Assembly (NCBI GenBank): GCA_020442185.1
Contig: JAGRKS010000041.1
Span: 30,538-94,537, forward strand
DNA: 64,000 nt
Direction: 5' to 3'
Source: Hyphomicrobiaceae bacterium
GTDB lineage: Bacteria > Pseudomonadota > Alphaproteobacteria > Rhizobiales > Hyphomicrobiaceae
In this document: piece after piece, positions 3,078-19,005 of the stretch
Position numbering within the stretch: position 1 is the stretch's first letter
Layout: every line of letters begins with the position of its first letter
Program-made: the position numbers and the translations under genes
Notes under the pieces: model-generated
Database searches by the model: none
What the model saw: the letters and a program-made list of their open reading frames with translations, nothing else
Told to the model about the DNA's origin: nothing

Positions 3078-3458
3078 TCAGTACGTCAGCACCTTGCAGT
3101 TTTCGTCCTCCATGATCTCCTCGATGAGATAGGCGCCACCGACGATGCCTTCGCATTCTGGGATCAAATCGTCTTTGCTCATGTCGAAAAGATCGAGGTT
3201 CGGCGAACAGCAGTAGAACTTGGCGCCTGCCTCGTGCGCGTCCTTGATGAAGTCGTAGACGCTCTTCGGGCTGCCGGGCTTGACGAACAGTTTTTCGGCA
3301 ACGCCCTTTTTCATGAGGCGGCCGGATGTTGCGGTGCAAATAACCTGCACGTCGTATTCCATGGCTGCAGCCACCGAAGCCTGGAAGATCGGCGCCCCCA
3401 GTTCCTCGCCGTTACGCGGGTCGGTGTTTGCCATGACGATAACGAGCTTCTTGGACAT
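3078..3458 (-). CDS. dsrE3C: DsrE3C-type sulfur-carrier (sulfurtransferase) protein
   Basis: 126 residues of DsrE/DsrF fold. The segment FYCCSPNLDLFDM (about residues 81-93) carries two adjacent Cys at the place where DsrE3 proteins bear their persulfide Cys. Proteins of this kind pass sulfane sulfur via TusA and DsrE to the sHdr complex. It is the first gene of the dsrE3C-shdrC1-B1-A run. A palindromic operator-like site (3591-3608) lies about 130 bp upstream of the ATG at 3456-3458. The C-subtype rests on context and the Cys pair; membership of the DsrE family is firm. Confidence 0.85.
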   Translation of the reverse strand: MSKKLVIVMANTDPRNGEELGAPIFQASVAAAMEYDVQVICTATSGRLMKKGVAEKLFVKPGSPKSVYDFIKDAHEAGAKFYCCSPNLDLFDMSKDDLIPECEGIVGGAYLIEEIMEDENCKVLTY

Positions 3459-3590: not shown

Positions 3591-3608
3591 TATTCGCGAT
3601 TGTGAATA
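3591..3608. promoter_or_regulatory. operator-like inverted repeat upstream of dsrE3C-shdrC1B1A
   Basis: Plus-strand sequence is TATTCG-CGATTG-TGAATA, an inverted repeat with a 6-base centre. Flanking AT bases extend it (read on the minus strand it is AATATTC-N8-GAATATG). The same architecture occurs before lipS1 (10294-10321) and dsrE3A (18031-18048). The shape fits dimeric ArsR-type repressors, a class known to control sHdr genes (sHdrR, SoxR). No regulator gene lies in this window. Confidence 0.6.
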
Positions 3609-3695
3609 TTTAAGATCGCACGCAGGCCGGCGCAACCGGCCGCACGCCGCGCTGGCCATAAAAACACGCAAAATCTGTTGCTTGACCGAGGACCG

Positions 3696-4400
3696 TCAGG
3701 ACATCAGGCGAGTCGCCTTGACGAGGCCGGTCATGATCGGCACCAGCGCGTTCTCGATCCGAGGCCCCAGTTCCGCAAGCTGGTCGAGGACCGGGCCGGG
3801 GTTGTCCGGCGTCTCAGCGCCATCGAGCCCCTCCATGATCAGGTCCTCGATCATCGCCCGGCGCACACCGGGATTACCGACGAACCCGAACGCATTATCG
3901 CCGATCTGGAAGACGGCCGGGGCGCCGCTTTCGAACGTCGCGAGAACGGTGGCGTAGTCCGGCGGCCGCGGCCTGTCGCGCATGTAGACGACGCTCGGAA
4001 ACATTTCCGGCATGTAGCCGCAAAGCGCGTTCTCGCTTGCCCGCCGCGCCGTCTCGATCGTCAGCGTCAGCGGATGCGGGATCGATCCGCCGTCCGCCGC
4101 GATGGCGAGAACCTGCGCTCCGAGATCCATCGCGATCACCGGTTTCGAGAGCATGAGACAGGCGCGAACGAGCCTCACCTCGGGCTCGAGCGTCGGCAGC
4201 GGCTTGCCAGTTGCCACCGTGCCCCACGTTCCGCCGCCGACCAGCACCAATGCATCGCCGACGACATCGACATCAGGAAGCACGCCCCCGTTGTTGAATG
4301 GCCGCACGTAGCCGAAGCGGATCCCGCGCCCTTCGAAATGATCCTCGATATGGCCGAGCCATTCCGATTGCGTGTGCTGGATGACGGTGACGTGCTTCAT
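3696..4400 (-). CDS. class I glutamine-amidotransferase-fold protein lacking the catalytic triad
   Basis: 234 residues with the GATase1 layout: LVGGGTWG at the oxyanion-strand position (about residues 52-59), KPVIAMDLGAQVLA where active enzymes have PVLGICLGHQ, and FVGNPGV where they have QFHPEV. The nucleophile Cys is Asp, the catalytic His is Asn and the Glu is Gly, so hydrolysis of glutamine is not expected. It lies between sLpl(AB) and dsrE3C on the same strand, 237 bp before dsrE3C. I recall gat-like genes accompanying sHdr/lip loci, but the role is unknown. A binding or scaffold role in lipoate loading or sulfur transfer is inference only. Confidence 0.75.
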   Translation of the reverse strand: MKHVTVIQHTQSEWLGHIEDHFEGRGIRFGYVRPFNNGGVLPDVDVVGDALVLVGGGTWGTVATGKPLPTLEPEVRLVRACLMLSKPVIAMDLGAQVLAIAADGGSIPHPLTLTIETARRASENALCGYMPEMFPSVVYMRDRPRPPDYATVLATFESGAPAVFQIGDNAFGFVGNPGVRRAMIEDLIMEGLDGAETPDNPGPVLDQLAELGPRIENALVPIMTGLVKATRLMS

Positions 4401-4612
4401 TGTTTTCGACTTGCCTCCGACGCAGAATCAGTGATCGAGGGCCAACGCAGGATGCGGCCCAACGGGAATGACATTGCGAGACCGATCTGACCGGAGCCCC
4501 AACCGACCAGCGCACCCTCCGACCAGAACGCCTTCTGAAAATCGCCATCGCGAACCCGCCGCCGTCGCTTCGATCGTCGCTGCACATCGGCCCGGTCTTC
4601 TACCGCGGCCAT
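4397..4612 (-). CDS. possible small protein translationally coupled to the amidotransferase-like gene
   Basis: A 71-residue frame whose TGA overlaps the ATG of the next gene as ATGA. The N-terminal third is Arg-rich and unconvincing. The C-terminal part (from about residue 26, AFWSEGALVGWGSGQIGLAM) is more protein-like. I recognise no family. The overlap is the main argument; without it this would be taken as noise or as the remnant of a decayed gene between sLpl(AB) and the amidotransferase-like gene. Confidence 0.27.
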   Translation of the reverse strand: MAAVEDRADVQRRSKRRRRVRDGDFQKAFWSEGALVGWGSGQIGLAMSFPLGRILRWPSITDSASEASRKQ

Positions 4613-4657
4613 ATGCCGGGTGCGTGGCGGCGACGCGCCAGCGCTGAAGCCTCGGTC

Positions 4658-5728
4658 TCAATTCGATCCAGTGAGAGCGGCCTCGACGGCATCACGGAAA
4701 TCGGATGGCGCGATCGAAATGAGATCGGGCTGGCAGGCCGCGAAGAACTGCATGACGGCCGCGCCCGCTTCATCGATCTGAACGCCGCGCAGCTTCGCTT
4801 CGAGATCCATGACGAGCCGCGGCGGCGTGACGAAAAAATCACCCGTTATCAGCGCTTCGCGGATGCGCCGCGCGCCGCCCTCACCTTCGATGCGCAGCGC
4901 GGCGTGTACTGTGCCGCCAGCCGACTGGACACTCGCCGAAAGCGCTTCGCGCGCGTCTCTGGCATCGATTTCGAACACGAACGCGTCACGGCCGATGTCC
5001 GCGTCGTGCAATTCCGTGGCACGCCGCTCTTCGACCTCCAGACTTTCGCCCGCTATCGCATCGAGACCGAGTCCCAACGCCAGCCCATCGATCAACGCCC
5101 GTTGTACAGTGGCAACCTCAGGAGCCTGGCCCAACAGTTCCTTCAGGGTGACAATCCGGCTTTCCGGACGGTCGAGGCCATGCTTTTCGAGCTTGGCCCG
5201 CGGCACATTCAGCGCCGCCATCACACGCGATGGATCCGCGTCGATCAGTACGGTGCCCTGATAGAACAGCGTGTCCCCATCGAAGAAGCCGCCAGTGCCA
5301 GAAATCTTGCGGCCATCGACCTCGATGTCGTTGCGCGGACGGAACCGGGCATCGATGCCAAAGGTGCGGGCCAGCCCGTCGGCGGCGCTTTCGCATATCC
5401 GCGTCGCATAGGCGGCAAGCGTCGGCAGCGGCAGGCGCGCCCGGGAGATGACGAGTTCCCACCCGAGCTGACCTGGATCGAGATAGATGGCCCCGCCTCC
5501 GGTAATGCGGCGCACGAGGCCAATGCCGTTATCTCGGCAATACTCGACATTCAGCTCGCGACCAATTGCCTGATGACGACCGACGAGAGCCGACGGCTCG
5601 AAGCGGAGGAAGCGGATGGTGTCGGGAATTTCGCCAGCGCGGTGCAACTCGATCATCGCCTCGTCGAAGGCGATGTTCGAGCGGCCCTCGCGCAGCCCCG
5701 TATCGATCACCCGGAACGCCAACGCCAT
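4658..5728 (-). CDS. slpl(AB): sLpl(AB), lipoate:protein ligase for sulfur-oxidation lipoate-binding protein
   Basis: 356 residues. Ligase motifs are visible: RRITGGGAIYLDPGQLGWEL (RRxxGGGxVYHDxGN-type, about residues 73-92) and GRKISGTGG (about 138-146). The length covers both the catalytic domain and the C-terminal accessory domain, as in the fused AB form. The enzyme adenylates octanoate or lipoate and attaches it to the carrier lysine of LbpA. It ends the run lipS1-lipT-lipS2-ykgJ-DM13-slpl and starts 3 bp after the DM13 stop, which suggests coupled translation. The acceptor lbpA is not in the window. Confidence 0.88.
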   Translation of the reverse strand: MALAFRVIDTGLREGRSNIAFDEAMIELHRAGEIPDTIRFLRFEPSALVGRHQAIGRELNVEYCRDNGIGLVRRITGGGAIYLDPGQLGWELVISRARLPLPTLAAYATRICESAADGLARTFGIDARFRPRNDIEVDGRKISGTGGFFDGDTLFYQGTVLIDADPSRVMAALNVPRAKLEKHGLDRPESRIVTLKELLGQAPEVATVQRALIDGLALGLGLDAIAGESLEVEERRATELHDADIGRDAFVFEIDARDAREALSASVQSAGGTVHAALRIEGEGGARRIREALITGDFFVTPPRLVMDLEAKLRGVQIDEAGAAVMQFFAACQPDLISIAPSDFRDAVEAALTGSN

Positions 5729-5731
5729 GCC

Positions 5732-6223
5732 TCAGGCCCCCGCATGAGCAAGATCGGCCGGCGCGATCAGCACCGAGAAATGCTCACACCAGATGACGAC
5801 GCTGCCGAAGCGCTTGAGATCAAGCCCGGCGGGAATGTCGTAGCGCTGGCTTCCCTTGAAGGCGCGCAGTCGGCCGAGATCGACGAACATCTCTCCGCTG
5901 ACATCGCCCGAGGACCGGACCGGCGCCTTCGGCACCAGATAGACGTGGTACTTGGGGCCGGGCCCGACTTCGAAATCCGACTTCAGGAAGAGGCTCTGCT
6001 CGCGCACCTCGACGCTTCCCTTGCCCCAGTGGATCGGATCGTTCGGATCATGCCGCACGAACGAACCAGTCGCCTTGACGGCCGCTGATTTGTCGGCGGC
6101 CGAAAGCGTCTCCGCGGCCGGCGGCGGCGGGAAGACGAATGGAAAAGCAAAGAAACCAAGAGCAACGCCGAACCCAGTGCCGAGGATGGCGCCGAGCAGA
6201 AATGAAATGATGCCGCGCTTCAT
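5732..6223 (-). CDS. exported or membrane-anchored DM13-domain protein
   Basis: 163 residues. A hydrophobic segment just after MKRGIISF (about residues 5-30) is a signal peptide or anchor. The rest matches DM13: GSFVRHDPNDPIHWGKG, LFLKSDFEVGPGPKYHVYLV, a mid-domain DLGRLRAFKGSQRYDIP and the conserved Cys in VVIWCEHFSV. DM13 domains have been proposed to act in electron transfer using that Cys. The ATG at 6221-6223 was chosen because the frame upstream of it is Arg-rich and overlaps ykgJ. Its stop is 3 bp from slpl(AB). An envelope redox protein inside a cytoplasmic lipoate operon is unexpected. Confidence 0.8.
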   Translation of the reverse strand: MKRGIISFLLGAILGTGFGVALGFFAFPFVFPPPPAAETLSAADKSAAVKATGSFVRHDPNDPIHWGKGSVEVREQSLFLKSDFEVGPGPKYHVYLVPKAPVRSSGDVSGEMFVDLGRLRAFKGSQRYDIPAGLDLKRFGSVVIWCEHFSVLIAPADLAHAGA

Positions 6224-6294
6224 GCTGTGGCCTCGCTTTGCTGCGTCGATGATCCCGCCCCCCTCCACTATCACGAGAAGGCTGACACGAGGAC

Positions 6295-6702
6295 TCACGT
6301 CATCGCGGGTTCGATTGCCGGCGGCAACGGCGCCATCCCGCGCCCCTCGCGCGCCATCGTGCAGGCGTCGTCCCCCGGCTGGCAATCGCGGCAGACGACC
6401 GGGCGGTTCTCGTAGACGGTGCATGATGTCGCGACGCCAACCTCGCCTGCGAGCGCTGCACAGCGATCCGCGACGCTGAGCATGCGCCAGTGCTTTTCAT
6501 CGACCAGCGCCGCCGGCAGCCGTGCGACGTCGGCATCATCCTCGAGTGTGAAACGCGGCCACTCGGCGGAATGGGCGCAGCAGGCCCCGCATGCCTGGCA
6601 TGGCGACTGGCTGGCGAGAACGGGCGCAACCGTCTGAGGCAGCGCTTGGCCGACGTCGACGTCGTCGGAACCTTCACACGTATCCCCCACGACCGCCGCC
6701 AC
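6295..6702 (-). CDS. YkgJ-family cysteine-cluster protein
   Basis: 135 residues from a GTG start directly next to the lipS2 stop. The N-terminal motif CQACGACC (about residues 35-42) and later Cys residues (CAAL, CTVY, CRDC, DDAC) define the zinc/iron-chelating YkgJ (UPF0153) family. Members bind a metal or Fe-S cluster; their function is unsettled. The position between lipS2 and the DM13 gene suggests help with Fe-S supply or repair of the radical-SAM lipoyl synthases, which sacrifice a cluster in each turnover. That role is inference. Confidence 0.75.
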   Translation of the reverse strand: MAAVVGDTCEGSDDVDVGQALPQTVAPVLASQSPCQACGACCAHSAEWPRFTLEDDADVARLPAALVDEKHWRMLSVADRCAALAGEVGVATSCTVYENRPVVCRDCQPGDDACTMAREGRGMAPLPPAIEPAMT

Positions 6703-8004
6703 TCAGTTCCAGTTCTCGGGCTCGAGATCCTCATCCTCGACGAAGGCCTCGCCAGGCCGCTCCATATCGAGCTGCTGGCGAATCTTGCGAATGTCCACGG
6801 CCTGCGGCTGGAACGGATAGCTCGCGATGTTCGACGGCGGACTGTCACCGTATGGCCGGTCGCAGGCGGAAATGTCTTCGGCCACTTTCCCCGGACATCC
6901 CGAGGTACGGAAGGCCAGCCCCTTGTCGATCACACCATCCAGTTCGCCCGGAGGCAAACCGAAGTCCGTGACGCGGCCGGCATCGTCGAACGTCATCTGC
7001 TCGACGCGCACGCCCGCGTAATCGATCAGATACCGCGCAAGCTGCACGCGCCGCCACTGATCGCGCGGCGTCGCCGGAAGATGATCCATCAGCGATCCTT
7101 TTTCCGGGAAGAAGCAGAACATATGGCTATGCCCCCCCATATCGACGAGACGCTGCACAAGCGTCAGCACGTCGTGTTCCGTCTCGCCCATGCCGACGAT
7201 GATATGGGCGCCGAACTTCTGGGTGCCGAAAATATCGCGGGCGTCCTCGAGAATCTCCCAGTATTTCTTCCAGGAATGCGGGCTGTCGACGCCCTTGCCG
7301 CGCGTCCTGTCGAAGATTTCCGGTGTCGCCGCATCGAGTGCGACGGTGAAGATGTCGGCGCCGAGATCACGCAGCGTCGAAACGTCCTTGCGCTGCATGG
7401 TCGTCGGATTCGACAGGATAGACACCGGGACGGTCGCCGGGTCGATGCGTGACGTCCACTTGCCCAGCACAGTAACCGTATCGTCGTCCGATCGCGGGTG
7501 CGTAATCATCGAGATGCACATGCGGTGGAATGGTGTTTTTTCGCCGTCGCGCGCGACGATCTCGATGATCTCGTCCATCGGCACCGCCGGCCAGTCGACG
7601 CGGATGAAATTGCGGTCGGCATAGTCGCGGTCCGCTTCCCGGTGGCGCGCCAGGCCGCAATAGGCGCAGTTGGCGCGGCACCCTTCTGGGTATGTCAGCA
7701 GCAGGTTGAGGCAGCGCGTGCAGCCACAACGGTGCATCTTGCCGGGCATGACCCCGAGCGTGATCGCGGCCGCCGTCGACATCTGCACGTACTCGGGCGA
7801 ACGCATGTGCGGAGCAAGGCGGTTGTTGTTCGGTAGATAGACGCCTTCAGGCGGCACATTGGCCGCCTTGACGCGAGCGCCGTTCTTGGCCTCGGCTGGA
7901 GTCGCGGTCGGGATGCGCGGCTGCATCACATCGAAGGCATTGAAGTCGCGCCCGTCCGAACCGGCAGGCGACGGCAATGCGGTCTCTCGCTTCAAGCAGC
8001 TCAT
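6703..8004 (-). CDS. lipS2: LipS2-type radical-SAM lipoyl synthase component
   Basis: 433 residues. The radical-SAM triad CRANCAYC (CX3CX2C) lies near residues 108-115. It is preceded by extra Cys (RCGCTRC, about 92-98) and followed by one in the C-terminal TSGCPGK, consistent with an auxiliary cluster that donates sulfur. LipS1 and LipS2 together insert two sulfurs into protein-bound octanoate and replace LipA in archaea and in sHdr bacteria. The start is the ATG at 8002-8004. It lies 21 bp after lipT and abuts ykgJ. Which paralog is S1 or S2 is assigned from gene order only. Confidence 0.82.
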   Translation of the reverse strand: MSCLKRETALPSPAGSDGRDFNAFDVMQPRIPTATPAEAKNGARVKAANVPPEGVYLPNNNRLAPHMRSPEYVQMSTAAAITLGVMPGKMHRCGCTRCLNLLLTYPEGCRANCAYCGLARHREADRDYADRNFIRVDWPAVPMDEIIEIVARDGEKTPFHRMCISMITHPRSDDDTVTVLGKWTSRIDPATVPVSILSNPTTMQRKDVSTLRDLGADIFTVALDAATPEIFDRTRGKGVDSPHSWKKYWEILEDARDIFGTQKFGAHIIVGMGETEHDVLTLVQRLVDMGGHSHMFCFFPEKGSLMDHLPATPRDQWRRVQLARYLIDYAGVRVEQMTFDDAGRVTDFGLPPGELDGVIDKGLAFRTSGCPGKVAEDISACDRPYGDSPPSNIASYPFQPQAVDIRKIRQQLDMERPGEAFVEDEDLEPENWN

Positions 8005-8025
8005 CGGATCGTCATCCTCTCAACG

Positions 8026-9141
8026 TCACGCCGCCCAGTATTCGGGAAACGCAATCCAGCTTCGTGTCAGATCAGCGGCGCGCGGACGCCCGCCCCCCTC
8101 GTAGATGCGCATCAACTCACGGCGTCGTTCGACAGCGCGCGCCAGCGAGGCGCCGAACAGGGCCGCGATCTCGTCAGAGTAATCGACCGCTGCATCCGCC
8201 CTTCCCTTGAGCCAGCGCGCGGCGGCTTCGCCCGCGAGCTCGCCCGAGACAACCGCGGCGTTGATGCCGGCGCCGGTGATCGGATTGGTGAGCCCCGCCG
8301 CGTCGCCCGCGAGCAGCACCAGCGCGTCGCCGAGGCGGCCGACCGGATCGACCGGACCGCCGACCGGAATGGCGCCCCCTGTATAGCCGAGAACGTCGCC
8401 GCCAACGCGGCCCTGATCCGCGAGTTGACGGTGCAGATCGTCGAGAAGCGGCTTGAAACGCGCCTTGTGGGCAGGCGCCCCGCCGAGGCCGAGGTTGGCG
8501 ACGTCGCCCTTCGGGAAGAGCCACGCATAGCCGCCCGGCAGCTGGCTCGTAAGGAAGATGTCGGTTTCGGCGAACGGCTGCAACAGACGAACCGTCATCT
8601 GCCGCGATTCGGCGATCTCGGTGACAGGGTGGCCGATCGCCTCGCCAACGGGGGAGCCCGGGCCGTCGGCGCCGACGATAACGCGGGCGCGGATCGTGCT
8701 GCCGTCCGAGAGGTGAGCTGTGCCGTCAGCGTCGAAGCGGCGGAGTTGGCGCGCGAACCAACACGCGGCACCGGCCGCGCGGGCCGCCTCGACGAGAGCC
8801 GCGTCGAAGGCTACGCGGTCGATCATGACGCCCGGGAAGTTTTCCTTGAGATGCGGCGGCTGATCCTCGACGAACGTCGTCATCGCGCGGATCGGCTGCC
8901 GCTTGGCAATCGCAACCGCCGCGACTTCCTGGCCGATCATCGCCGGCACGAACTCGGCACACTGCACCGGCACGCCCGCTTCGCGCTTGCGGTCGATGGC
9001 GACCACCCGCGCGCCGCCGCGCGCGGCCGCAGCCGCGGCACAGGCCCCCGCCGGCCCCAACCCGACGACCAGCACATCGGCGTCGGGCGCAGCGATCCCA
9101 GATCCGGTCTGAGGCTCAGCGTCCGTCGAAGCGGCTACCAT
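8026..9141 (-). CDS. lipT: LipT-like FAD-dependent oxidoreductase (geranylgeranyl-reductase family)
   Basis: 371 residues. FAD-binding GLGPAGACAAAAAA starts near residue 27; the acceptor-loop motif VLLAGDAAGLTNPITGAGI (about 283-301) is the conserved second flavin contact of the geranylgeranyl-reductase/UbiH-like group. PVQCAEFV (about 57-64) matches the CAE motif of these reductases. Flavoproteins of this type sit between lipS1 and lipS2 in sulfur oxidisers and are thought to supply electrons for radical-SAM chemistry. Here it is 13 bp from lipS1 and 21 bp from lipS2. Confidence 0.82.
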   Translation of the reverse strand: MVAASTDAEPQTGSGIAAPDADVLVVGLGPAGACAAAAAARGGARVVAIDRKREAGVPVQCAEFVPAMIGQEVAAVAIAKRQPIRAMTTFVEDQPPHLKENFPGVMIDRVAFDAALVEAARAAGAACWFARQLRRFDADGTAHLSDGSTIRARVIVGADGPGSPVGEAIGHPVTEIAESRQMTVRLLQPFAETDIFLTSQLPGGYAWLFPKGDVANLGLGGAPAHKARFKPLLDDLHRQLADQGRVGGDVLGYTGGAIPVGGPVDPVGRLGDALVLLAGDAAGLTNPITGAGINAAVVSGELAGEAAARWLKGRADAAVDYSDEIAALFGASLARAVERRRELMRIYEGGGRPRAADLTRSWIAFPEYWAA

Positions 9142-9154
9142 GCGGTGTCATCCA

Positions 9155-10288
9155 TCATGCGGCGCACGATGCGGCACCGCGTACCTTCGTGCCGCCGACC
9201 TTGATCGAGCAACAGGCGTGCGCCTGGCTATAAGGTCGGCCGATCGCATCAGCAACCGCGACGGCGCCGTCGGCTGGGAACGCGATGCCGTCGAGACCAG
9301 CCATCACTGCGTAGGCATCGACGATGCGCTTGTGCATGCCGGGCGGTCGCGCGCAGCCGAGATTGACCGGGCGATCGGGCAGCCGGCGCCGCGCCTCGCG
9401 GAAGATGCGTCCAACGTCGCCGGTCGCCGGTGTCACGAACGTTCCGGCCTTGGCATAGAACGGCATGATGACGACGAGCACCAGCGAATGGATGTTGTGG
9501 CGGGCGCAGATGTCGAGCGCATTCGCCTCGCCGACGATCTGTCCGTAGTGGAGGCCAACGACGATATGCGGCACGACCTCCATGCGGGTTGCGCACAAGG
9601 CTGCAAGCGTTGCCTCGAAATCGGCGACCGGACGATCGAGATGGTAGACCTCGCGTATCGTCTCTTCGGCCCCGATCACGTCCATCATCGCGGTATCGAC
9701 GCCAGCCGATTCCATCAGTCGCGCCCGCGGCTCGTCAAGGAGCGCGGAATGAATCGCGATCTTGAGATCGGGGTGGTCGCGCTTCAGCCGTTCGATGACC
9801 GGATAGTATTTCTCATACTTGATTTCGTTGCGCCGGTTGGACCCGCCCGACAACAGAAATCCCTGCAGCCCTTGCATCAAGATGAGATCGCGAACCTTCT
9901 GGTCGAGCATCTCGGGCGTCGTTGCCGGAATCATCGGCTCGAGGATCTTCGCCTTGCAGTGATCGCAATCGAGCGCGCAGGCACCGGCCGTCACCGAAAA
10001 CGCAGGGAACGAGTTCTTGCCGCAGCCCTGGATTTCGGAGGACGCGTATTCCTTGAAGGTCGGCGTCGAAAAGCGGATCGGCTGAAGGGCGCGCACCTCG
10101 GCATCCTGTTGCAGGAGCGCGACGAGTTCATCGTCAAAGGTGGCATCCTCTAGAACCTCAATGCCGGCGAGGCGCTCGCGCCAAGTGGACAGCTCGTTCC
10201 GTTGCGACGGCAATTCGGTCGCTCGCGCCATCCCTTCGGGGGTCGCGGCTTCGGCGGAGGTCAGGCTATCGGACGTTGTCTCTGTCAT
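9155..10288 (-). CDS. lipS1: LipS1-type radical-SAM lipoyl synthase component
   Basis: 377 residues from the ATG at 10286-10288. The radical-SAM motif CALDCDHC (CX3CX2C) lies near residue 103. Further Cys occur in QGCGKN before it and in GCARP and HACCS near the C-terminus, plausible auxiliary cluster ligands. It acts with LipS2 to make lipoate on the carrier protein. It is the first gene of the lip run. A near-perfect palindrome (10294-10321) begins 6 bp before the ATG and leaves no good ribosome site, so a leaderless mRNA or a later start (internal ATG about 19 codons in) is possible. Confidence 0.82.
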   Translation of the reverse strand: MTETTSDSLTSAEAATPEGMARATELPSQRNELSTWRERLAGIEVLEDATFDDELVALLQQDAEVRALQPIRFSTPTFKEYASSEIQGCGKNSFPAFSVTAGACALDCDHCKAKILEPMIPATTPEMLDQKVRDLILMQGLQGFLLSGGSNRRNEIKYEKYYPVIERLKRDHPDLKIAIHSALLDEPRARLMESAGVDTAMMDVIGAEETIREVYHLDRPVADFEATLAALCATRMEVVPHIVVGLHYGQIVGEANALDICARHNIHSLVLVVIMPFYAKAGTFVTPATGDVGRIFREARRRLPDRPVNLGCARPPGMHKRIVDAYAVMAGLDGIAFPADGAVAVADAIGRPYSQAHACCSIKVGGTKVRGAASCAA

Positions 10289-10293
10289 GGGCG

Positions 10294-10321
10294 CAATATA
10301 TTCGCCATTCCGAATACATTG
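10294..10321. promoter_or_regulatory. near-perfect operator palindrome upstream of lipS1
   Basis: Half-sites CAATATATTCG and CGAATACATTG flank a 6-base centre (CCATTC); 10 of 11 positions pair. It is the best example in the window of the TATTC(G/A)-N6-CGAATA element also found before dsrE3C and dsrE3A. Its position right at the lipS1 start would block initiation, as expected for an ArsR-type repressor site. The binding protein is not encoded here. Confidence 0.7.
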
Positions 10322-10439
10322 CAACGCGCGCGTTGCGCTCCCGTGCACATGTCCTCCAGCCAGGATGAGGCGGCAAGACCCCCTGTGCCCATGCCAGTCT
10401 CTGGGCCGGCCGATCACGCCGCCCTCGGCATCCGCCCGG

Positions 10440-11750
10440 CTATTCTGCCGGGTTCGGAGCCCCCTCGATATGATCCGCCAACATTTCGACGATGCTCAAC
10501 AGCTCCTTGTCCCATCCGAGGGCGGCGCTACTCTCGTCCATCGTCAGACGGCAGTTTGCACAGGCTGATACGAGCGCCGGCGCACCTGTCGCCTCGACTT
10601 GGGCCATCTTGATCCGGAACACCTCGTGGCGGACGTCCGCTGCCCGCCCCATCGCCTGGACGCCGCCGCCGCCACCACAACACCAGTTGTAGTTGCCTGT
10701 CGGCGTCATCTCGCGGAAGTCCGTGGCGAAGCCGTCGAGCAGATAGCGGGCATCGGCCGTGGCGCCACCGCGCCGGGAGATCTGGCAGGGATCGTGATAG
10801 GTCACCGCCTGGTCCGTGTACGGCGTGAACCGCAACTTGCCCTGCCGCTTCAACGCCGCCAGGAATTCCGTGATGTGCATCACCTCGAAGGGCAATTCCC
10901 GTCCGAGCAGGTTGCCGCCGGTCCAGCGCAGGACGCCGTAGGCATGGCCGCACTCGGGCACCACGACAATCCTCGCGCCGACACTCTCAGCCGCCGAGGC
11001 GATGCGCTCGACCATGAGTTTCGCAATATCGGCCTTGCCCGAGAGCACGCCGAAATTGGTGGCCTCATAGCCCTTCGACGACAACGTCCAATCGACGCCG
11101 CCGGCGTTCAAAAGCTTGGCCATCGCGACGACACTGTCGGGATACTTCATCATCTCGATCGACGAGACGGTGAGTAGCACCTCGGCGACCGGCTTATCGA
11201 GCGGTATCTCTGTTTCGTGTTCGTCGGCCAGCCATTCGACACGATCGGCGAGCTTGGCTTCCGTCAGGCCGAGGGGGCTGCCTCTGGTACGCGCGTTCTC
11301 CGCCGCCTCGAGGAGATCTGGCGGCCCGAGCCCTGCCGCGACGAACGCCTGCCGCGTTGCCGCGACGACGCTCGCGATATCGATCGCCATCGGACACACG
11401 ATCGTGCAGCGTGCGCACATCGTGCAGGTATCGAAGATCAGCGGCTCCCATGCCCTGAGGTCCTGCTCGGTCACCTCCGGCGCAAGACCGAGAGCCTTGC
11501 GGAGGCCTGAGAATGGCGCCTTGCTGCGCCGGTACACCCGCGTCATGGGCTGGAGCTTCAACGCCGGCGTCAGGCGCGGGTCCTTTGTCGCCTCGTGGAA
11601 ATGACAGGCCTGGGCGCACTGCCCGCAATGAACACACGCGTCGAGGTAGGCGGCGATATGGCCACCGAGAAGCGCTTCCATCTTGGTGACAGCGGCGCCG
11701 ACGTCGACGGGCCGGTTGTCGGGCGTGATTGTTCCTGGCTCAACGGTCAT
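10440..11750 (-). CDS. HdrCB-fused / DsrK-like Fe-S protein of a membrane electron module
   Basis: 436 residues from the ATG at 11748-11750. Two ferredoxin-type motifs come first (CVHCGQCAQAC and CTMCARCTIVC), then a CCG region: DPCQISRRG, NWCCGGGGGV and CANCR. This is the HdrC+HdrB fusion pattern of DsrK/HmeD. Such subunits exchange electrons between cytoplasmic thiol/persulfide substrates and quinone through a partner cytochrome b. The start overlaps the stop of the NarI-like gene (ATGA), so the two are probably translated together. It is not the separate shdrC2/shdrB2 pair of sHdr operons, because both halves are in one chain. Confidence 0.85.
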   Translation of the reverse strand: MTVEPGTITPDNRPVDVGAAVTKMEALLGGHIAAYLDACVHCGQCAQACHFHEATKDPRLTPALKLQPMTRVYRRSKAPFSGLRKALGLAPEVTEQDLRAWEPLIFDTCTMCARCTIVCPMAIDIASVVAATRQAFVAAGLGPPDLLEAAENARTRGSPLGLTEAKLADRVEWLADEHETEIPLDKPVAEVLLTVSSIEMMKYPDSVVAMAKLLNAGGVDWTLSSKGYEATNFGVLSGKADIAKLMVERIASAAESVGARIVVVPECGHAYGVLRWTGGNLLGRELPFEVMHITEFLAALKRQGKLRFTPYTDQAVTYHDPCQISRRGGATADARYLLDGFATDFREMTPTGNYNWCCGGGGGVQAMGRAADVRHEVFRIKMAQVEATGAPALVSACANCRLTMDESSAALGWDKELLSIVEMLADHIEGAPNPAE

Positions 11751-12403
11751 GGCGTGAACCCCCTGCGGCCGTAGGTGGCGCCGGTCCGGGCGCGGGCGAA
11801 GGCAAATGTGAAGGCGTGCATCAGGCGGCTGAATGGGAAGTAGATCATCAGCGCCTCGACCGTCAGCATGTGGAACGCCCTGAGCCCCGCGTGGGCTTCC
11901 TGCAGCGCGAGACATCCCGTCAACATCACGATGAACGTCAACCAGACGCCAAGGTGATCATCGATATCTGTGAGCTGCTTTTTCACGGGGTCCGTCAGGC
12001 GGTGCACGTAGAGCAGGATGAGGCCAGCGAACGCCGCCTCAGCCGCGACGATGAATGCCCATCGCGGCATCTCCGGCCAGCCGATGTCGGCGCCGATCAA
12101 CCGCTCCTGGATGAAGGCGACGTGAGGCGCCGCAAACAGCACCAGTACGAACAGGCCGATATGGAACATGTAGCCGGTGACGAAATGATAGATCGTGCGG
12201 CCAAGGTTGCCGCCGTGCGGGATTGAGTGGATGACGAGCGCCTTGGTCGCGCCGCCGACGCCACCAGCCCCCTCACGCGCCACCGAGAGGTCGCGCGGCC
12301 GCTTCATCGCAAGCAGCGAAAAGATGCGCCAGGCGATGCCCAGGACGAAAACCGCGAGTGCAAACGACCATAGCGGTCCTTCAATGAACTCGATCACACT
12401 CAT
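11747..12403 (-). CDS. NarI/DsrM-like integral membrane cytochrome b
   Basis: 218 residues with about five hydrophobic segments and His residues placed as heme b ligands (for example IYHFVTGYMFHIG near residues 71-83, and later QEAHAG and RLMHAF). Nitrate reductase gamma-type subunits carry two hemes b and exchange electrons with quinone. It overlaps the FDH-gamma-like gene by 4 bp upstream and the HdrCB-like gene by 4 bp downstream, so the three form one unit. With the DsrK-like partner it resembles a minimal DsrMK/Hme complex. Confidence 0.82.
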   Translation of the reverse strand: MSVIEFIEGPLWSFALAVFVLGIAWRIFSLLAMKRPRDLSVAREGAGGVGGATKALVIHSIPHGGNLGRTIYHFVTGYMFHIGLFVLVLFAAPHVAFIQERLIGADIGWPEMPRWAFIVAAEAAFAGLILLYVHRLTDPVKKQLTDIDDHLGVWLTFIVMLTGCLALQEAHAGLRAFHMLTVEALMIYFPFSRLMHAFTFAFARARTGATYGRRGFTP

Positions 12404-13665
12404 GGCCGTGCTCCCTGCATGATGCCGTCGCCTGCCGCCGCGGCGCTCACTTCGGCGCGCTTGCGATCGGTCGTCGCCTCGCCACTATGCTCCGCGTACC
12501 AGAGGTCGTGGTGTTCGCGCGCCCAGTTCTCGTCGACAGTTCCTTGCGCCATCGCCTCGAACGCGCCTTCCATACCGATTGAACCGATGTAGGCGTGGCC
12601 GATCCCGACGGCGATGAAGATTACAGCGGCAATGCCGTGCGCGAGATTGGCCAACTGCGCCTGCGAGCGATCCGCGAGTGTGTCGGGGAACAACAGCACG
12701 ATACCCGACACCGAGATCGCAAGGCCGAGCACGATCGTCAGCACGAACCAGATCTTTTGACCTGCGTTGTACTTGTAGGAACTCGCATGGCCACCGAACA
12801 GCCCGCCGCCCTTTGCGAGCCAGGACAGGTCGACGAGGCGCGGCGCATTACCCTTGATGAAGAGAACGAGGATCGCGAGCACGGCGGGGAGGAACAGCGG
12901 CCCAAACAGGTTGTGACCCTGCATCGCCGCACTCGCGACGAGCGCGAAACCCTGCGGCCCGAGCACCGGCATCAACAGCGATTTTCCGAACAGAATGACG
13001 AGACCCGAAATCGCCAGCAGAACGAACAACACCGCGGCGAACCAGTGCGCGATCCTCTGCGCCAGCGAGAACCGCGGGATGACGCGCCCGGACCTGCCGT
13101 TGTCGATACGAATGCGCCCGCGCACGAGGAAGAAGAGCGCGATCGCCGCAATGACCGCGAGCAGCATCTGGCCGCCATAGCGGACGACCTGATCGTTGCG
13201 CAGGAGGCGCCATGCCTCGCCAGCGCTCTGGATCAGAACGCCGCGCTCGCCGCCGGTCAGTACCGACTCGCCTGCCTGCCCGTGTCGTATGCGATCCCAT
13301 AGCCCTTCGGTAACGGATTCGTGCCCGAGCACGGTGTCAGACGGTGCCGACGGAAAGGAAGCACCCTCGCCCTGTCCAGGGCGGCGCACGGCATTGCTCG
13401 TCGTGTCGGGAAGATTGACGGCACCCGCAGGCGGTCGCACCGAGCCACCCGGCACCGCGATCGACTGCCCTTTCAGGGATTCGGGAGAGGGCAACTGCTG
13501 TGCCTCTGCCATCTCGCTCATGGTGACCGCGAGCGACAGCGTCGACAACGCGGCGCATACCGTCACCGCAACTAGCGCCCGTAGCCGCCGAGCACGAGAC
13601 AACCGCCGCATCGGCGGGCGCGCCACCGTTGGCCCAGCGGTTGACATTCGGGCATCCTCCGTCAC
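12400..13665 (-). CDS. orphan formate-dehydrogenase gamma-like cytochrome b
   Basis: 421 residues: signal/anchor (about 25-55), a periplasmic stretch with the VNLPD and LIQSAGEAWRLLRN motifs of FDH gamma subunits (about 80-160), then a four-helix cytochrome b with RIAHWFAAVLFV and HGIAAVIFIAVGIGHAY holding candidate heme ligands. FdoI/FdnI-type subunits normally anchor FdhA and FdhB, but neither is present. Its stop overlaps the next start (ATGA). A second ATG six codons in is possible. The inferred role is a quinone-reactive cytochrome joined to the DsrMK-like pair. Confidence 0.8.
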   Translation of the reverse strand: MTEDARMSTAGPTVARPPMRRLSRARRLRALVAVTVCAALSTLSLAVTMSEMAEAQQLPSPESLKGQSIAVPGGSVRPPAGAVNLPDTTSNAVRRPGQGEGASFPSAPSDTVLGHESVTEGLWDRIRHGQAGESVLTGGERGVLIQSAGEAWRLLRNDQVVRYGGQMLLAVIAAIALFFLVRGRIRIDNGRSGRVIPRFSLAQRIAHWFAAVLFVLLAISGLVILFGKSLLMPVLGPQGFALVASAAMQGHNLFGPLFLPAVLAILVLFIKGNAPRLVDLSWLAKGGGLFGGHASSYKYNAGQKIWFVLTIVLGLAISVSGIVLLFPDTLADRSQAQLANLAHGIAAVIFIAVGIGHAYIGSIGMEGAFEAMAQGTVDENWAREHHDLWYAEHSGEATTDRKRAEVSAAAAGDGIMQGARP

Positions 13666-13807
13666 GCGAGCCTCCTGGATCTGGTTCCATGCAGCGGATG
13701 GCGAATGCGCTGCCGATCACTCCAAATTAGACCGTTGCGATCAGAACCGCGCAAATTTGCGCCGCCCTCTTCGCCTGCATTCGCCATGCGGTCCATGAAC
13801 AGATTGC

Positions 13808-13835
13808 CATGCGCGAATGTCTTGGATGTTGATCA
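13808..13835 (+). promoter_or_regulatory. 28-bp conserved block, copy 1
   Basis: Starts with CATGCGCGAATGTC and continues with GA-N-GT-N-GATCA. The same arrangement, with 23 identical positions by eye, occurs at 19145-19172. Its CGAATG lies where the right half of the sulfur operator would fall. On the plus strand it points away from the FDH-gamma module. Confidence 0.45.
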
Positions 13836-13842
13836 AGGTCAA
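13829..13842. promoter_or_regulatory. FNR/FixK-type box
   Basis: TTGATCAAGGTCAA matches TTGA-N6-TCAA exactly and the longer TTGAT-N4-ATCAA with one mismatch. It is about 165 bp before the FDH-gamma-like ATG, suggesting oxygen-responsive control of the membrane module. It overlaps the conserved 28-bp block. Confidence 0.45.
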
Positions 13843-14036
13843 CGAATGGGACGCTCGTCGTCGCGGCGTGTGGTTCGGTCGCACCGTGGCAATCGCATTC
13901 GATCGATCTTGAAACCAGCGGCACTTGCCGGGAACGACGCCAAATATCGCCGTAAAATCATATGCTACGTTGGTAACGGCACCCCGGAATGCACCGCGGT
14001 CGATGTCGCGGCGGCACATGAGGGTTCCCGGGCCGC

Positions 14037-16367
14037 TTATCCGGCAGACGGCGGAATGAAACGGCGAATGAGCGCGACGGTCGCCGGCAGGATCACGAGC
14101 TGACCGATCAATGCAGCGAACAGACAAACGGCCGTCAGCTCACCGAACTGGCGAAGCGAGGGCAAGTCGGAGAGCATCGTGACACCGAGGCCCAACGCCA
14201 GCACGATCGTCGTCAGCACGACGGCCGGTCCGATATGATGAACGGTGCGGACGAGGGATTGGAACGTATGGGCCGGGCCCGCCGCGCCCACGAGGCGCTC
14301 TTCCTCGAGATGATAGCGGTTGAGGAAGTGGATGGTCGAATCGATGGCCAGCGAGAAGGCGACCGTGATGGCGATGATCGATGCGAACTGCAGACCCTGT
14401 CCCGTGAGCCAAAGCAGCGTGCCCGTGGCGAAGATTGGGAACAGCGAAGGCAGCACGCTCGCCAGTCCTGCAAGCCATGATCGCAATGCGATACCGAGGA
14501 AGATGAAGATGATGAACATGTCTCCGACGAGGCCCCAGTTCATCTCGTCGATCAGCTTTGCGGAATTGCGGGCAGCGATCGCCGGCAATCCGGTGACGAC
14601 GATCTCATAACCAGGATTGGCTTTGCGCACCGGCGCGAGCGCTTCGTCGATCTGCTCGACGACGGGCAGGATCTCGCTGGCATCGATGTCCGGCATGCGC
14701 GCGGTGACGAGAACCGCACGCTCGTCCTTGTCGATGAAGCGGCGCGTCAGATGCTCGGGCAGGATCGCGACATAGCCTTTCACCGTTTCGATGCGCGTAT
14801 CACCCGCTTCCGCAAGCCAGCGCCGCAAGCTGTCGAGCGACCAGACGTTGCCGAGCCCAGCGCGCTTCTCGAGCACGTTGTGCGCGTCGTGAATGGCCTT
14901 CAGGGTGTCGGCATCATAAAGGCCGTGTTCAGGCCCCCACTTGATCATGACATGCAGCGGATTGGCGCCGGTCAACTTCTGGTCGAGCGAAGCGGTGCCG
15001 GCGAGCGCCTGCTCCTTGTCGGGCACCTGGTCGGCGAGGCGATACTGCGGCACGAGCTGCACGTAGGCGAGCCCGGTCAGCACGACCGCCAGGACGCCGA
15101 ACAGCGAGAACACGACCGGCCGCGCCGCAACGGCTCGTACGATCGTCTCCGTCATGCGCTGCAATGTGCCGACGCCGCCATCCTCCGCATCGATATCGCC
15201 GGCCCGGCTCGCCGGCTCGCGACGGACCAGCAGCGCTGCGAGCGTCGGCACGACGACGGCAACGGCGATATAGGAGATGCCGACGGCCATCAGCGCCGCG
15301 ATGCCGAACGTCTTGATGAGCGCGCTATCGGCGAACTGGAACGAGAGGATCGCCAGCGCGGCATTCATCGCCGTCAACAGGCAGGCCGGCGCGACATCGA
15401 TCACGGCGGCCCGCGCCGCCTCCAGCCGATCGACGCCAGCCAGAATGGAACGGCGCACCGAGAACACAAGATGCATGCTGTCGGAGAAGCCGGCGACCAA
15501 GATCAGCGGCGTGATGACGTTGACGAACAGATTGAGGCGGAAGTCGAGCGCACCCAAGGCACCGAGCGTCCACAGGATCGCGATGGCCGGGCCGGCAACG
15601 GCAATCAGGGTCAAGGATATGCGCCGGAAAAACAGATAGGCGACGACGATGCCGACCACGAAGCCGAGGCCGTTGTAGAGGATGCGGTCGCGCTCGACGG
15701 CGTTGCGGATCTCGAGCTGCATGACAGGCGCGCCGGTCAGCTTCGCCGTCAGTCCAGACGCCTTCAATTCTCGATCGACGATCTCCTGCAGGCCGCCAAT
15801 GATCTTGCGCGGACCTTCCGTCGCGACGCTCTTGCGGTCGAGCGAAATCACGATCAGCGCCAACTGGCCATCGTCGGACAGGAATTTACCGGAGACCACA
15901 TCGTTGGCCCGCAGCCGTTTGACGATGTCGTCGAAGGCCGCCCCCTCGGGCAGATCGTCGGGCACAAGCGGCGCCGCATAGCCATTGGCGTCGGGCTTGT
16001 CACGCGCGGAGAGCATCGAGATGAGGCCGTTCACGCCGTCCGCAAGCTGCAGCTCGATCGTCAAGTTGCCAAACGTGCGAAGGCTCTCCCGCGACAGCAG
16101 TTTCTGGCCCTCGACCACGACGAGCACGTCGAACTCGCTCGAGGGAAAGCGACGGTCGATCTCTTCGTACTGGCGGAACTCCGCGGTGTCGGTGCGAAAC
16201 AGCTCCGAGAGCGAGTCGTCCACCTTGAGACGCATCACGCCCATCACCGCAAGCGCCGTCACCAGCAGGATCAGGACCGCCGATACATACGGCGCCTTGA
16301 GGGCAATCAAACCCAGTCGCTCGAGACCGAACGAAAACCGGAATGAGCGTCGTGGCTCCTCGCTCAT
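14037..16367 (-). CDS. RND-superfamily (MMPL-type) exporter
   Basis: 776 residues from the ATG at 16365-16367, which follows a GGGGGAATA ribosome-site region; an upstream extension is not protein-like. The pattern is two repeats of one transmembrane helix, a large periplasmic loop and five further helices, as in stand-alone COG1033 exporters related to hopanoid and lipid transporters. The sequence DSTIHFLNRYH, near the end of the second repeat, is typical. Substrate unknown. It is downstream of the deacetylase-family gene (228 bp) on the same strand. Confidence 0.85.
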   Translation of the reverse strand: MSEEPRRSFRFSFGLERLGLIALKAPYVSAVLILLVTALAVMGVMRLKVDDSLSELFRTDTAEFRQYEEIDRRFPSSEFDVLVVVEGQKLLSRESLRTFGNLTIELQLADGVNGLISMLSARDKPDANGYAAPLVPDDLPEGAAFDDIVKRLRANDVVSGKFLSDDGQLALIVISLDRKSVATEGPRKIIGGLQEIVDRELKASGLTAKLTGAPVMQLEIRNAVERDRILYNGLGFVVGIVVAYLFFRRISLTLIAVAGPAIAILWTLGALGALDFRLNLFVNVITPLILVAGFSDSMHLVFSVRRSILAGVDRLEAARAAVIDVAPACLLTAMNAALAILSFQFADSALIKTFGIAALMAVGISYIAVAVVVPTLAALLVRREPASRAGDIDAEDGGVGTLQRMTETIVRAVAARPVVFSLFGVLAVVLTGLAYVQLVPQYRLADQVPDKEQALAGTASLDQKLTGANPLHVMIKWGPEHGLYDADTLKAIHDAHNVLEKRAGLGNVWSLDSLRRWLAEAGDTRIETVKGYVAILPEHLTRRFIDKDERAVLVTARMPDIDASEILPVVEQIDEALAPVRKANPGYEIVVTGLPAIAARNSAKLIDEMNWGLVGDMFIIFIFLGIALRSWLAGLASVLPSLFPIFATGTLLWLTGQGLQFASIIAITVAFSLAIDSTIHFLNRYHLEEERLVGAAGPAHTFQSLVRTVHHIGPAVVLTTIVLALGLGVTMLSDLPSLRQFGELTAVCLFAALIGQLVILPATVALIRRFIPPSAG

Positions 16368-16595
16368 GGCGGTATTCCCCCCTTGGTTCAATGCTTCTGC
16401 GGCACGTTCCCGTCGCGCTGACAGAAGTCCGGGCAAGCACGTCCGCGACAGGGCCCCTCGCCACGCCGCAACGGATATTGGGCGCGCCCGGCACCTCTCG
16501 ATAACCGGAATCGGTTACCGGCCGCCGGAGCGTTGCATTGCCCGCGCACCGAAGGCAAGCGCACGTCGGCGTGTTGGCTGGCACCGGCGACGGTT

Positions 16596-17723
16596 CTACG
16601 GCGTCTCGATCCCAAGCGTTGCGATAATGTCATGGATTTCCGCGCGCACCGGCGTTTCGGTCACCGTATCCGCCAACCGCTCGAACCAGATAGCGGCACG
16701 ATCGTCGTCGTCGACGAGATCACAGTCCAGTCCTTGCAGCAGATCGATGGCGGCCGGCGGCAGCGTATCGGGCACTGTTTGCCCGGAGAGGATCGCCCAC
16801 ATCCCCGCCCAAAGGCGCGCAGTGGTCCATGGGTTGTAGCCGCCGCCGCCGAGCACGACGGCATGCGGCGCACATTCGACGGCCGCCTCCGTGGCCTGCC
16901 AGAGCGCCGCATTGGACAGTGCCATGCCGGCCAGCGGATCGCCTTCCAGCGCATCGGCACCGAGCGTGACGACGATCCCTTCGGGCGCCGCGGACTCAAG
17001 AAAGGGAGCGACGGCTGCCGTCCAGACGGCGTCGAGTTCGCTATCTGAAAAGCCGCGCGGCACGGGAATGTTCAGCGCGCGGCCGCCAAGACGATCCGTC
17101 ACGGAACCGGTGCCGGGCCAGCGGCCGGCTTCGTGGATCGAGACGAGGTGCACGCGCGGTTCCTCAGCGAAAGCCGCTTCGACTCCATCACCGTGGTGGG
17201 CGTCGAGATCGACGTAGGCGACACGGTCAAGTCCACGGTCGAGCAAGCGTTTGACGGCGAATACGGGATCGTTGAGATAGCAGAAGCCGGAGGCGCGGTC
17301 CGGCCTGCCGTGATGCGTGCCACCGCCTGGATGGAATGCAATCGTGCCGTCGATCGCGAGATCGGCCGCCAGGATGGCGCCGCCGACGCTCGCTGTCGCC
17401 CGAGTCCACAGATCGGGAAAGATCGGACACTCCATCGTGCCGAGATTATATTGCTGGCGATCGTCGGCGGTCGCGACGCCGTCTGCCGACACGCGCTCCA
17501 GCGCATCGAGGTAATCGGGTGCGTGGAATTGCTCGAGCGTCGCGCGATCCGCTGGCTCGGCGATCCGCTTGAGAGCTTCCGGCAGCAGACCCAGCACCTC
17601 GACCAGCGACAGCAACGCCGCCTGCCGGTTGATCGACAGCGGATGATGACGGCCAAATCCCGGGCGCGAGAAGACCGGGTGCGTGATGAAGCAGGCGCCG
17701 CGCGCCGATGTTGGTCTGATCAT
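16596..17723 (-). CDS. histone-deacetylase-family (AcuC-like) Zn amidohydrolase
   Basis: 375 residues. Active-site segments are intact: HPGGGTHHGR (catalytic His pair, about 129-138), YVDLDAHHGDG with the Zn-binding Asp and His (about 169-179), GADALEGDPLAG with the second Zn Asp, and GGGGYNPW with the catalytic Tyr. Bacterial members deacetylate small molecules, polyamines or acetyl-CoA synthetase (AcuC). No acetoin or acetyltransferase gene is adjacent, so the substrate is unknown. Confidence 0.88.
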   Translation of the reverse strand: MIRPTSARGACFITHPVFSRPGFGRHHPLSINRQAALLSLVEVLGLLPEALKRIAEPADRATLEQFHAPDYLDALERVSADGVATADDRQQYNLGTMECPIFPDLWTRATASVGGAILAADLAIDGTIAFHPGGGTHHGRPDRASGFCYLNDPVFAVKRLLDRGLDRVAYVDLDAHHGDGVEAAFAEEPRVHLVSIHEAGRWPGTGSVTDRLGGRALNIPVPRGFSDSELDAVWTAAVAPFLESAAPEGIVVTLGADALEGDPLAGMALSNAALWQATEAAVECAPHAVVLGGGGYNPWTTARLWAGMWAILSGQTVPDTLPPAAIDLLQGLDCDLVDDDDRAAIWFERLADTVTETPVRAEIHDIIATLGIETP

Positions 17724-18135
17724 GTCCTGACGCGCGCCCGCTTGCCCAACCGACGGCCCAGGTCTCCCCCCATCCTACCCCGGACGTCTACCTGCCTGTG
17801 CGGCTCGGGATGGCAGCGGCACCAACCTGGCTGCCCGTTGTGACGCGCCCCACTGCTGCACCGCAACATTGCGCCCGACCCTGGAAGTTCGGCCAATTTC
17901 TCCGCTGCGCAGCCTCGAGCTGCTTCGATCCGCATTGCACTCTCCCCTTGCATGCCGACGTGATAATCGACACTTTCCCGCAGGAGTGTGACCGGGCGGC
18001 CATTCGCCGTAGTTGACGCCGATGTCATAATCTTCGAATGTCTGAATACTAATCCGGCAATCTGCATCCGGCAACGGCATGCCCGACGCCGTCGGGCCGA
18101 CGCCATCCAGAACAAGACCCAGGGAGGACGAACCC
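17724..18135. other. intergenic region before dsrE3A
   Basis: Divergent spacer between the deacetylase-family gene and dsrE3A. I see no gene. It holds a degenerate sulfur operator (18031-18048) and a TTGACG hexamer at 18013-18018 that could be a -35 element. Confidence 0.5.
18031..18048. promoter_or_regulatory. operator-like inverted repeat upstream of dsrE3A
   Basis: TCTTCG-AATGTC-TGAATA, 88 bp before the dsrE3A ATG. Each half differs from the lipS1 palindrome by one base, and the right half is identical to that before dsrE3C. Spacing (N6) is the same in all three. Confidence 0.5.
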
Positions 18136-18633
18136 ATGTCCGCGACCGAATCGAACCAGAAGCACATGTCGATCATCGTCACCAAGGGGACGCTCGACTG
18201 GGCCTATCCCCCCTTCATTCTCGCGACGACCGCCGCGGCGATGGGCGTGAACGTCACGATGTTCTTCACATTCTACGGATTGGCGCTGCTCAAGAAGGAT
18301 CTCGACCTGCAGATCTCGCCGCTCGGCAAGCCCGACATGGCAATGCCGATCGCCGGCATGCACATGAAGATGCCGAACATGGTGGCGATGCTGCCGGGCG
18401 TGAATGCCATGGCGACAACGATGATGAAGAACCTGATCGCCAAGAAGGGTGTCGCGTCGATCCCCCAGTTGCGTGAGGCGGCCGTCGATTCCGACGTCGA
18501 GATCATCGCCTGCCAGATGACGCTCGACCTCTTCGAAATGAAGAAAGAGGATATGATCGACGGCATCAAGCTCGGCGGCGCGGCCACCTATATGGAGAAA
18601 GCGCTGTCGTCGGACATCAATCTCTATATCTGA
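18136..18633 (+). CDS. dsrE3A: DsrE3A-type sulfur-carrier protein
   Basis: 165 residues from the ATG preceded by GGAGGAC. The N-terminal ITKGTLDW-like segment (here VTKGTLDWAYPPFILATTAA) and FFTFYGL are hallmarks of the DsrE3A/peroxiredoxin-annotated group. The single conserved Cys is in IIACQMTLDLFEM (about residues 121-133). These proteins exchange sulfane sulfur with TusA. tusA follows 144 bp downstream with a hairpin between. DsrE3A-TusA pairs deliver sulfur to sHdr in many oxidisers. Confidence 0.88.
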   Translation: MSATESNQKHMSIIVTKGTLDWAYPPFILATTAAAMGVNVTMFFTFYGLALLKKDLDLQISPLGKPDMAMPIAGMHMKMPNMVAMLPGVNAMATTMMKNLIAKKGVASIPQLREAAVDSDVEIIACQMTLDLFEMKKEDMIDGIKLGGAATYMEKALSSDINLYI

Positions 18634-18777: not shown

Positions 18778-19005
18778 ATGGCTGACAAAGTACTGGACGC
18801 GAAGGGTCTCAACTGCCCGCTGCCCATCCTCAAGGCGAAGAAGGCGATCGTCGAGGTGCCGAAGGATGGCACACTCGAAGTTCTGTCGACCGATCCAGGG
18901 TCTGTTGCCGACTTTCAGGCGTTCTGCCGGACCACGGGCAACACCATGCTCGAGCATGGGGAATCCGATGGTGTCTACCGCTTCGTGATCAAGCACACAG
19001 GCTGA
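18778..19005 (+). CDS. tusA: TusA sulfur-carrier protein
   Basis: 75 residues, the full family length. GLNCPLPILKAKKAI (about residues 10-24) contains the CPxP motif whose Cys carries the persulfide. TusA passes sulfur from rhodanese/DsrE donors to the sHdr pathway (or to tRNA thiolation in other settings). The context with dsrE3A points to the dissimilatory role. A ribosome site (AAGGA) lies before the ATG. A GC hairpin follows the gene. Confidence 0.95.
   Translation: MADKVLDAKGLNCPLPILKAKKAIVEVPKDGTLEVLSTDPGSVADFQAFCRTTGNTMLEHGESDGVYRFVIKHTG

Follow-up and report, generated by a model that had tools for sequence, protein, structure and literature searches.

A Shared 18-bp Operator Predicted for the shdr, lip and dsrE3A Promoters of a Hyphomicrobiaceae Bacterium

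Introduction

In Hyphomicrobium denitrificans, the repressors SoxR and sHdrR bind DNA fragments located upstream of lipS1, upstream of dsrE3C, and in the soxT1A-shdrR and soxA-soxY regions. A fragment downstream of tusA is bound by neither protein, and deletion of the regulator leads to derepression of shdr and lipS1 (PMC10451225, PMC12423496). The main texts of these two papers do not give an operator sequence.

Several other repressors have published recognition sites. SqrR of Rhodobacter capsulatus binds ATTC-N8-GAAT (PMC9774250), whereas the site of NolR is (A/T)TTAG-N9-A(T/A) (PMC8960804, PMC12445080). RexT recognizes ATTCG-N15-CGAAT, and guanine has been proposed to be read by a basic residue with which its recognition helix begins (PMC8960804).

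Here we describe predicted operators for this type of regulon in a Hyphomicrobiaceae bacterium. The regulon type itself is already known. The new elements are an operator at the level of single bases, its mapping onto the published fragments, its spread across lineages, a probable regulator with additional predicted targets in the genome, and two half-site dialects. A regulon known in a single organism from gel shifts and expression measurements would thereby gain a precise 18-bp operator with which genomes can be scanned.

Operator sites in the window

The analyzed window is a stretch of 64,000 nucleotides (bases 30538-94537 of contig 81) from a 4.0-Mb assembly that is 94.7% complete. The genes and predicted regulatory sites relevant to this study are the following.

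741-2138, minus strand: sHdrB1; CCG domain; 82.5% identity to H. denitrificans
2246-3004, minus strand: sHdrC1; 4Fe-4S dicluster domain; 87% identity to H. denitrificans
3078-3458, minus strand: dsrE3C-type sulfurtransferase, first gene of the shdr operon; Pfam DrsE_2/DsrE; 82% identical to H. denitrificans dsrE3C
3591-3608, no strand assigned: predicted operator 1; TATTCG-N6-TGAATA, 133 bp upstream of dsrE3C at the head of the shdr operon
3696-4400, minus strand: glutamine-amidotransferase-like gene in the lipX position; 60% identity to H. denitrificans
4658-5728, minus strand: lipoate-protein ligase of the sLpl(AB) type; NCBIfam lipoyltrans/LplAB, under the cut-off; 59% identity to H. denitrificans
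6703-8004, minus strand: lipS2; NCBIfam LipS2, under the family cut-off; 81% identity to H. denitrificans
8026-9141, minus strand: lipT-type FAD oxidoreductase; position matches H. denitrificans
9155-10288, minus strand: lipS1, radical SAM lipoyl synthase subunit; NCBIfam LipS1, under the family cut-off; 73% identity to H. denitrificans LipS1
10295-10324, minus strand: predicted lipS1 promoter; TTGCAA-18-TATATT; 1 found versus 0.1 expected
10299-10316, no strand assigned: predicted operator 2; TATTCG-N6-CGAATA without mismatch, immediately upstream of lipS1
16596-17723, minus strand: HDAC-like gene, divergent from dsrE3A; Pfam Hist_deacetyl; a neighbor of the lip cluster in many genomes
18031-18048, no strand assigned: predicted operator 3; TCTTCG-N6-TGAATA, in the intergenic region that separates dsrE3A-tusA from the divergent HDAC-like gene
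18136-18633, plus strand: gene named dsrE3A in the initial annotation; NCBIfam assigns its product to DsrE2 (NF047629, 222 bits versus a cut-off of 210)
18778-19005, plus strand: tusA; Pfam TusA
19139-19156, no strand assigned: candidate operator 4; TATGAG-N6-CGAATG, between tusA and the FadL-type porin gene
19293-20651, plus strand: FadL-type outer-membrane porin; Pfam Toluene_X

Operators 1, 2, and 3 read TATTCGCGATTGTGAATA, TATTCGCCATTCCGAATA, and TCTTCGAATGTCTGAATA, respectively. The initial annotation had reported three sites with common half-sites and an exact N6 spacing at these places, and we found them all, the middle one at 10299-10316. It had also described 10 of 11 paired positions per half in the lipS1 copy. 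This pairing is indeed present, with one mismatch beside the core followed by at least four further pairs. Each site had further been said to stand before a different sulfur-oxidation unit, and this holds for shdr, lip, and dsrE3A, with the correction that the dsrE3A site lies in a region shared with the divergent HDAC-like gene.

The SqrR-class operator, ATTC-N8-GAAT, is found exactly in operators 1 and 2. Operator 3 is weaker: it has CTTC-N8-GAAT and does not match the SqrR-class sequence exactly, and it was assigned by its matrix score and its conservation. We scanned the window with a matrix built from 103 sites of relatives, with the window itself excluded. Operators 1, 2, and 3 ranked first, second, and third, with 21.6, 21.1, and 16.6 bits, and the fourth rank (13.6 bits) fell at 19139-19156, upstream of the FadL-type porin gene; since the training sites were chosen for the likeness of their half-sites, these scores are partly circular, whereas the spacing and H. 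denitrificans tests described below are not.

Operator 2 fills the spacer of the sigma70-like lipS1 promoter and overlaps the -10 element by two bases. The same promoter search gave no match at operators 1 and 3. A rule that all operators overlap a -10 element was abandoned: oriented alignments of the sites contained no consistent -10 and -35 elements, and a clear promoter match was found at lipS1 only.

Conservation among relatives

Of 149 related genomes, 22 encode LipS1, which was also found in 80 named loci from Hyphomicrobiaceae and from further members of the alpha-, beta-, and gammaproteobacteria. In the upstream regions of relatives, with the window left out, we counted pairs of half-sites that matched at least 10 of 12 bases at spacings from 0 to 14. 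At N6, such pairs were present upstream of dsrE3C in 13 of 51 regions, dsrE3A in 18 of 32, lipS1 in 32 of 83, and the HDAC gene in 25 of 56. Every other spacing gave between 0 and 4 matches, and dinucleotide shuffles gave on average less than 1. Upstream regions of genes inside operons, which served as controls, contained 0 (lipS2), 0 (lplA), and 1 (hdrC1) matches at N6.

Operators 1 and 2 occupy the same places in other genera, the latter mostly 5-12 nt ahead of the start codon. These matches show that one operator is common to sulfur oxidation and lipoate supply in many alpha- and gammaproteobacteria. The initial annotation had looked to related strains for conservation of the sites, and within the genus the outcome was divided. 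All three same-genus genomes retain operator 3 in the form TCTTCG-N6-CGAATA, the soxYZ site described below is kept in two (loci L306 and L307), and the fadL upstream regions of two same-genus genomes carry an operator-like site. The lip and shdr sites, though present in other genera, are absent from the same-genus loci L061 and L067, where the dsrE3A site alone is left in the island; the lip site is also absent from the same-genus locus L058. In the two genomes represented by L061 and L067 (also as loci L042 and L043), the lip and shdr genes run in one direction from the divergent dsrE3A region. Judging from this arrangement, the single dsrE3A operator may serve all of these genes, in both directions.

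The position of operator 3 between divergent genes raises the question of which side it controls. It could act on the HDAC-like gene and what follows rather than on dsrE3A-tusA, and in many relatives the HDAC gene stands at the head of the lip genes or ahead of them. Against this, same-genus genomes in which no HDAC match was found between the MMPL gene and dsrE3A (L042 and L043) keep the site 85-101 bp upstream of dsrE3A. We therefore consider it unlikely that operator 3 controls the HDAC side instead of dsrE3A-tusA. It may serve the HDAC/lip side as well, and control of both sides is possible.

Agreement with published binding in H. denitrificans

The H. denitrificans genome used here was identified by its sHdrA, which is identical over 349 amino acids to PDB 6tjr, the protein of this organism. 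Within 35 kb of this genome, all six positions that reached at least 13 bits fall in sulfur promoters. Each of the four fragments bound in EMSA contains a site (15.9, 13.8, 20.3, and 14.3 bits), whereas the unbound control reaches 0.2 bits, with the fragment bounds taken from gene order and published lengths rather than from primers. The predicted operators are TATTCAAACATGCGAATG, TATTCCATCATGCGAATG, TATTCCTATATTCAAATA, and AATTCACATATGATAATT, and the published binding fragments are thus placed on exact bases. This agreement (four of four bound fragments versus none of one unbound) is the strongest evidence for the identity of the operator.

The soxT1B-tusA promoter of H. denitrificans, outside the published EMSA fragments, carries a strong predicted operator upstream of tusA (TATTCGAATTTTTGCATA, locus L301, 1183-1200, 22.7 bits). 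The predicted targets are soxT1B-tusA in H. denitrificans, dsrE3A-tusA, and fadL.

The probable regulator

The initial annotation had placed the regulator outside the window and had pointed to ArsR-type regulators encoded near shdr. The genome contains a single close SqrR-family homologue, an ArsR repressor gene that does lie outside the window, on contig 102 (C102:37826-38206). It sits not near shdr but next to soxYZ and a gene for flavocytochrome c sulfide dehydrogenase.

The protein is an ArsR-type winged helix (Pfam HTH_5, 47.9 bits; NF033788 over the cut-off). Its best relative in the PDB is SqrR, and its Cys49 and Cys115 align with the sensor residues Cys41 and Cys107. Its identity to the H. 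denitrificans proteins is 62% for sHdrR and 36% for SoxR, and in the tree it belongs to a 14-row clade with sHdrR (SH-aLRT 99). The placement in this clade, together with the difference in identity, rules out its assignment to SoxR on the grounds of its adjacency to soxYZ. With the BigR equivalog NF040642 it scored 68.8 bits, below the cut-off of 155. The ArsR proteins on contigs 94 and 49 were rejected as candidates, since they do not have the cysteines, and the one on contig 202 is only distantly similar. We found no operator upstream of the regulator gene itself in this genome. Because the assembly is incomplete (94.7%), a second regulator could be missing from it.

Among the described systems, the sHdrR/SoxR regulon of H. 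denitrificans is alike in its target genes (dsrE3C-shdr-lbpA, lip, and sox), in the operator class of the bound fragments, and in having an sHdrR-clade regulator with both cysteines. It differs in that only an sHdrR-type protein was found here, encoded beside soxYZ. SqrR (PDB 6o8k-6o8o) likewise has both sensor cysteines, and the recognition helix is RQAAVSQQLARLR here and RQSLTSQHLTHLR in SqrR; its targets in R. capsulatus, unlike those considered here, are genes of sulfide-dependent photosynthesis. NolR (PDB 4omy, 4omz, 4on0) is similar in fold and operator geometry, and the TATTAG-N6-CGAATA sites seen in the outer lineages match its consensus, but NolR has no sensing cysteines, carries a serine-type recognition helix, and governs a symbiosis regulon. 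RexT shares the ATTCG/CGAAT half-sites but differs in its N15 spacing and in being a peroxide sensor.

The model proposed for H. denitrificans has two related repressors, SoxR and sHdrR, occupying the sites in competition or as a heterodimer. SoxR and sHdrR of H. denitrificans share all four bound fragments (PMC12423496), and many relatives combine TATTAG and CGAATA as unlike half-sites of fixed orientation and have several SqrR-family paralogues. The genome studied here, in contrast, has one close SqrR-family regulator and near-symmetric operators. Moreover, unlike half-sites need no heterodimer, because the site of NolR has been published as asymmetric (PMC8960804, PMC12445080), and we dropped the heterodimer as a necessary reading of such sites. 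Occupancy by two repressors thus appears improbable.

The initial annotation had proposed that shdr, lip, and dsrE3A form one regulon under an ArsR-type repressor belonging to the sHdrR/SoxR class. The match to the EMSA fragments, the SqrR site, and the genome's own regulator all support this proposal. The sites are, in all likelihood, operators of one persulfide-sensing sHdrR-type ArsR/SqrR repressor, whose binding in the organism we infer from sequence. A homodimer would read the 6-bp half-sites TATTCR ... YGAATA exactly 6 bp apart, overlap the core promoter, and block transcription. The repressed units would be dsrE3C-shdr, lipS1-lipT-lipS2-lpl, and dsrE3A-tusA, plus soxYZ and soxAXB on other contigs and possibly fadL and the divergent HDAC gene. 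Once sulfane sulfur becomes available from thiosulfate or sulfide, Cys49 and Cys115 would be joined by a sulfur bridge, the bridged repressor would leave the DNA, and the sulfur-oxidizing enzyme and the lipoate cofactor machinery would be made together. The sulfur-oxidation and lipoate genes very probably switch on together in this manner when sulfur is present.

Half-site dialects

Outside the family to which the window belongs, many loci carry TATTAG/CTAATA half-sites, either alone or together with a CGAATA half in a fixed orientation. Among the operators in regulator loci, those accompanied by a regulator whose recognition helix starts with Arg (Arg68 in the regulator found here) were C/C in 12 cases and A/A in none, and those accompanied by a non-Arg regulator were C/C in none and A/A in 7 (Fisher 2e-5), although the tree permits only one independent contrast for this association, so that common descent may be its cause. 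For the same reason, we no longer regard an Arg68/Ser68 code as established.

We tentatively propose, as an idea with somewhat less in its favor than against it, that a single residue where the recognition helix begins decides between the two dialects. Arg68 would specify TATTCR, Ser, Lys, or Gly would specify TATTAG, and sHdrR-type proteins with Arg68 would run the regulon without SoxR. SqrR (Arg; ATTC) and NolR (Ser; TTAG) follow this rule, and H. denitrificans SoxR has Asn at the position of Arg68. Such single-residue specificity can be tested with simple mutants.

Genome-wide distribution and further sites

The genome-wide list of sites was made by pattern rather than by matrix. TATTCG-N6-CGAATA with at most one mismatch occurs in five places, two of which are the lip and shdr sites. 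Two others lie inside genes (RTX and pirin-like), and one is 65 bp upstream of a GNAT gene. When up to two mismatches are allowed, the symmetric pattern occurs in 71 places; resemblance to it is therefore weak evidence by itself, and operator 3 needed outside support. The relaxed consensus learned from relatives, HATTMR-N6-YKAATD, matched six places, as opposed to none for the reversed pattern. The initial annotation had named random placement in a genome scan as evidence against its reading; three of the six matches are sulfur promoters (shdr, lip, and soxYZ), and the other three have no known link to sulfur.

With the matrix, an operator of 13.7 bits was found on a separate contig between soxYZ and a divergent gene. 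Contig 42 carries another, of 16.4 bits, at 214 bp upstream of soxAXB; the next best position there within 18 kb scores 1.4. The shdr-lip-dsrE3A island, soxAXB, and soxYZ are located on three contigs in this genome. As predicted from these sites, the regulon would also take in soxYZ, soxAXB, and perhaps fadL.

That AT-rich promoter words are merely alike by chance in three promoters is extremely improbable: the 71 places with TTCG-N6-CGAA palindromes at up to two mismatches, a one-mismatch match with the same spacer inside a coding gene, and the two mismatches of operator 3 speak for it, but it is opposed by the enrichment of N6 only in relatives, the first three ranks with an outside matrix, the agreement with EMSA, and the matches at soxYZ and soxAXB, and the spacing, outside-matrix, and H. 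denitrificans tests reject it for the whole set. As a set, the three sites are not a product of chance.

A good operator match, CATTCGATAACCTGAATA, was also seen near one end of contig 80 of G000 (186-203), upstream of an alginate-lyase-like gene.

Neighboring genes

At the expected place of sHdrA to the left of the window (L005, 10119-10637), the translation contains a run of unknown residues, and an assembly gap or mask seems likely. The segment from lipS1 to the MMPL gene (10440-13665) encodes an iron-sulfur protein similar to DsrK/HmcF, a short membrane protein similar to NarI, and a cytochrome b resembling the formate dehydrogenase gamma subunit. A DsrK-like gene adjoins lipS1 in one same-genus genome (L043). 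In alpha- and gammaproteobacteria, an HDAC/AcuC-like gene such as that at 16596-17723 recurs as a neighbor of lipS1 and dsrE3A-tusA.
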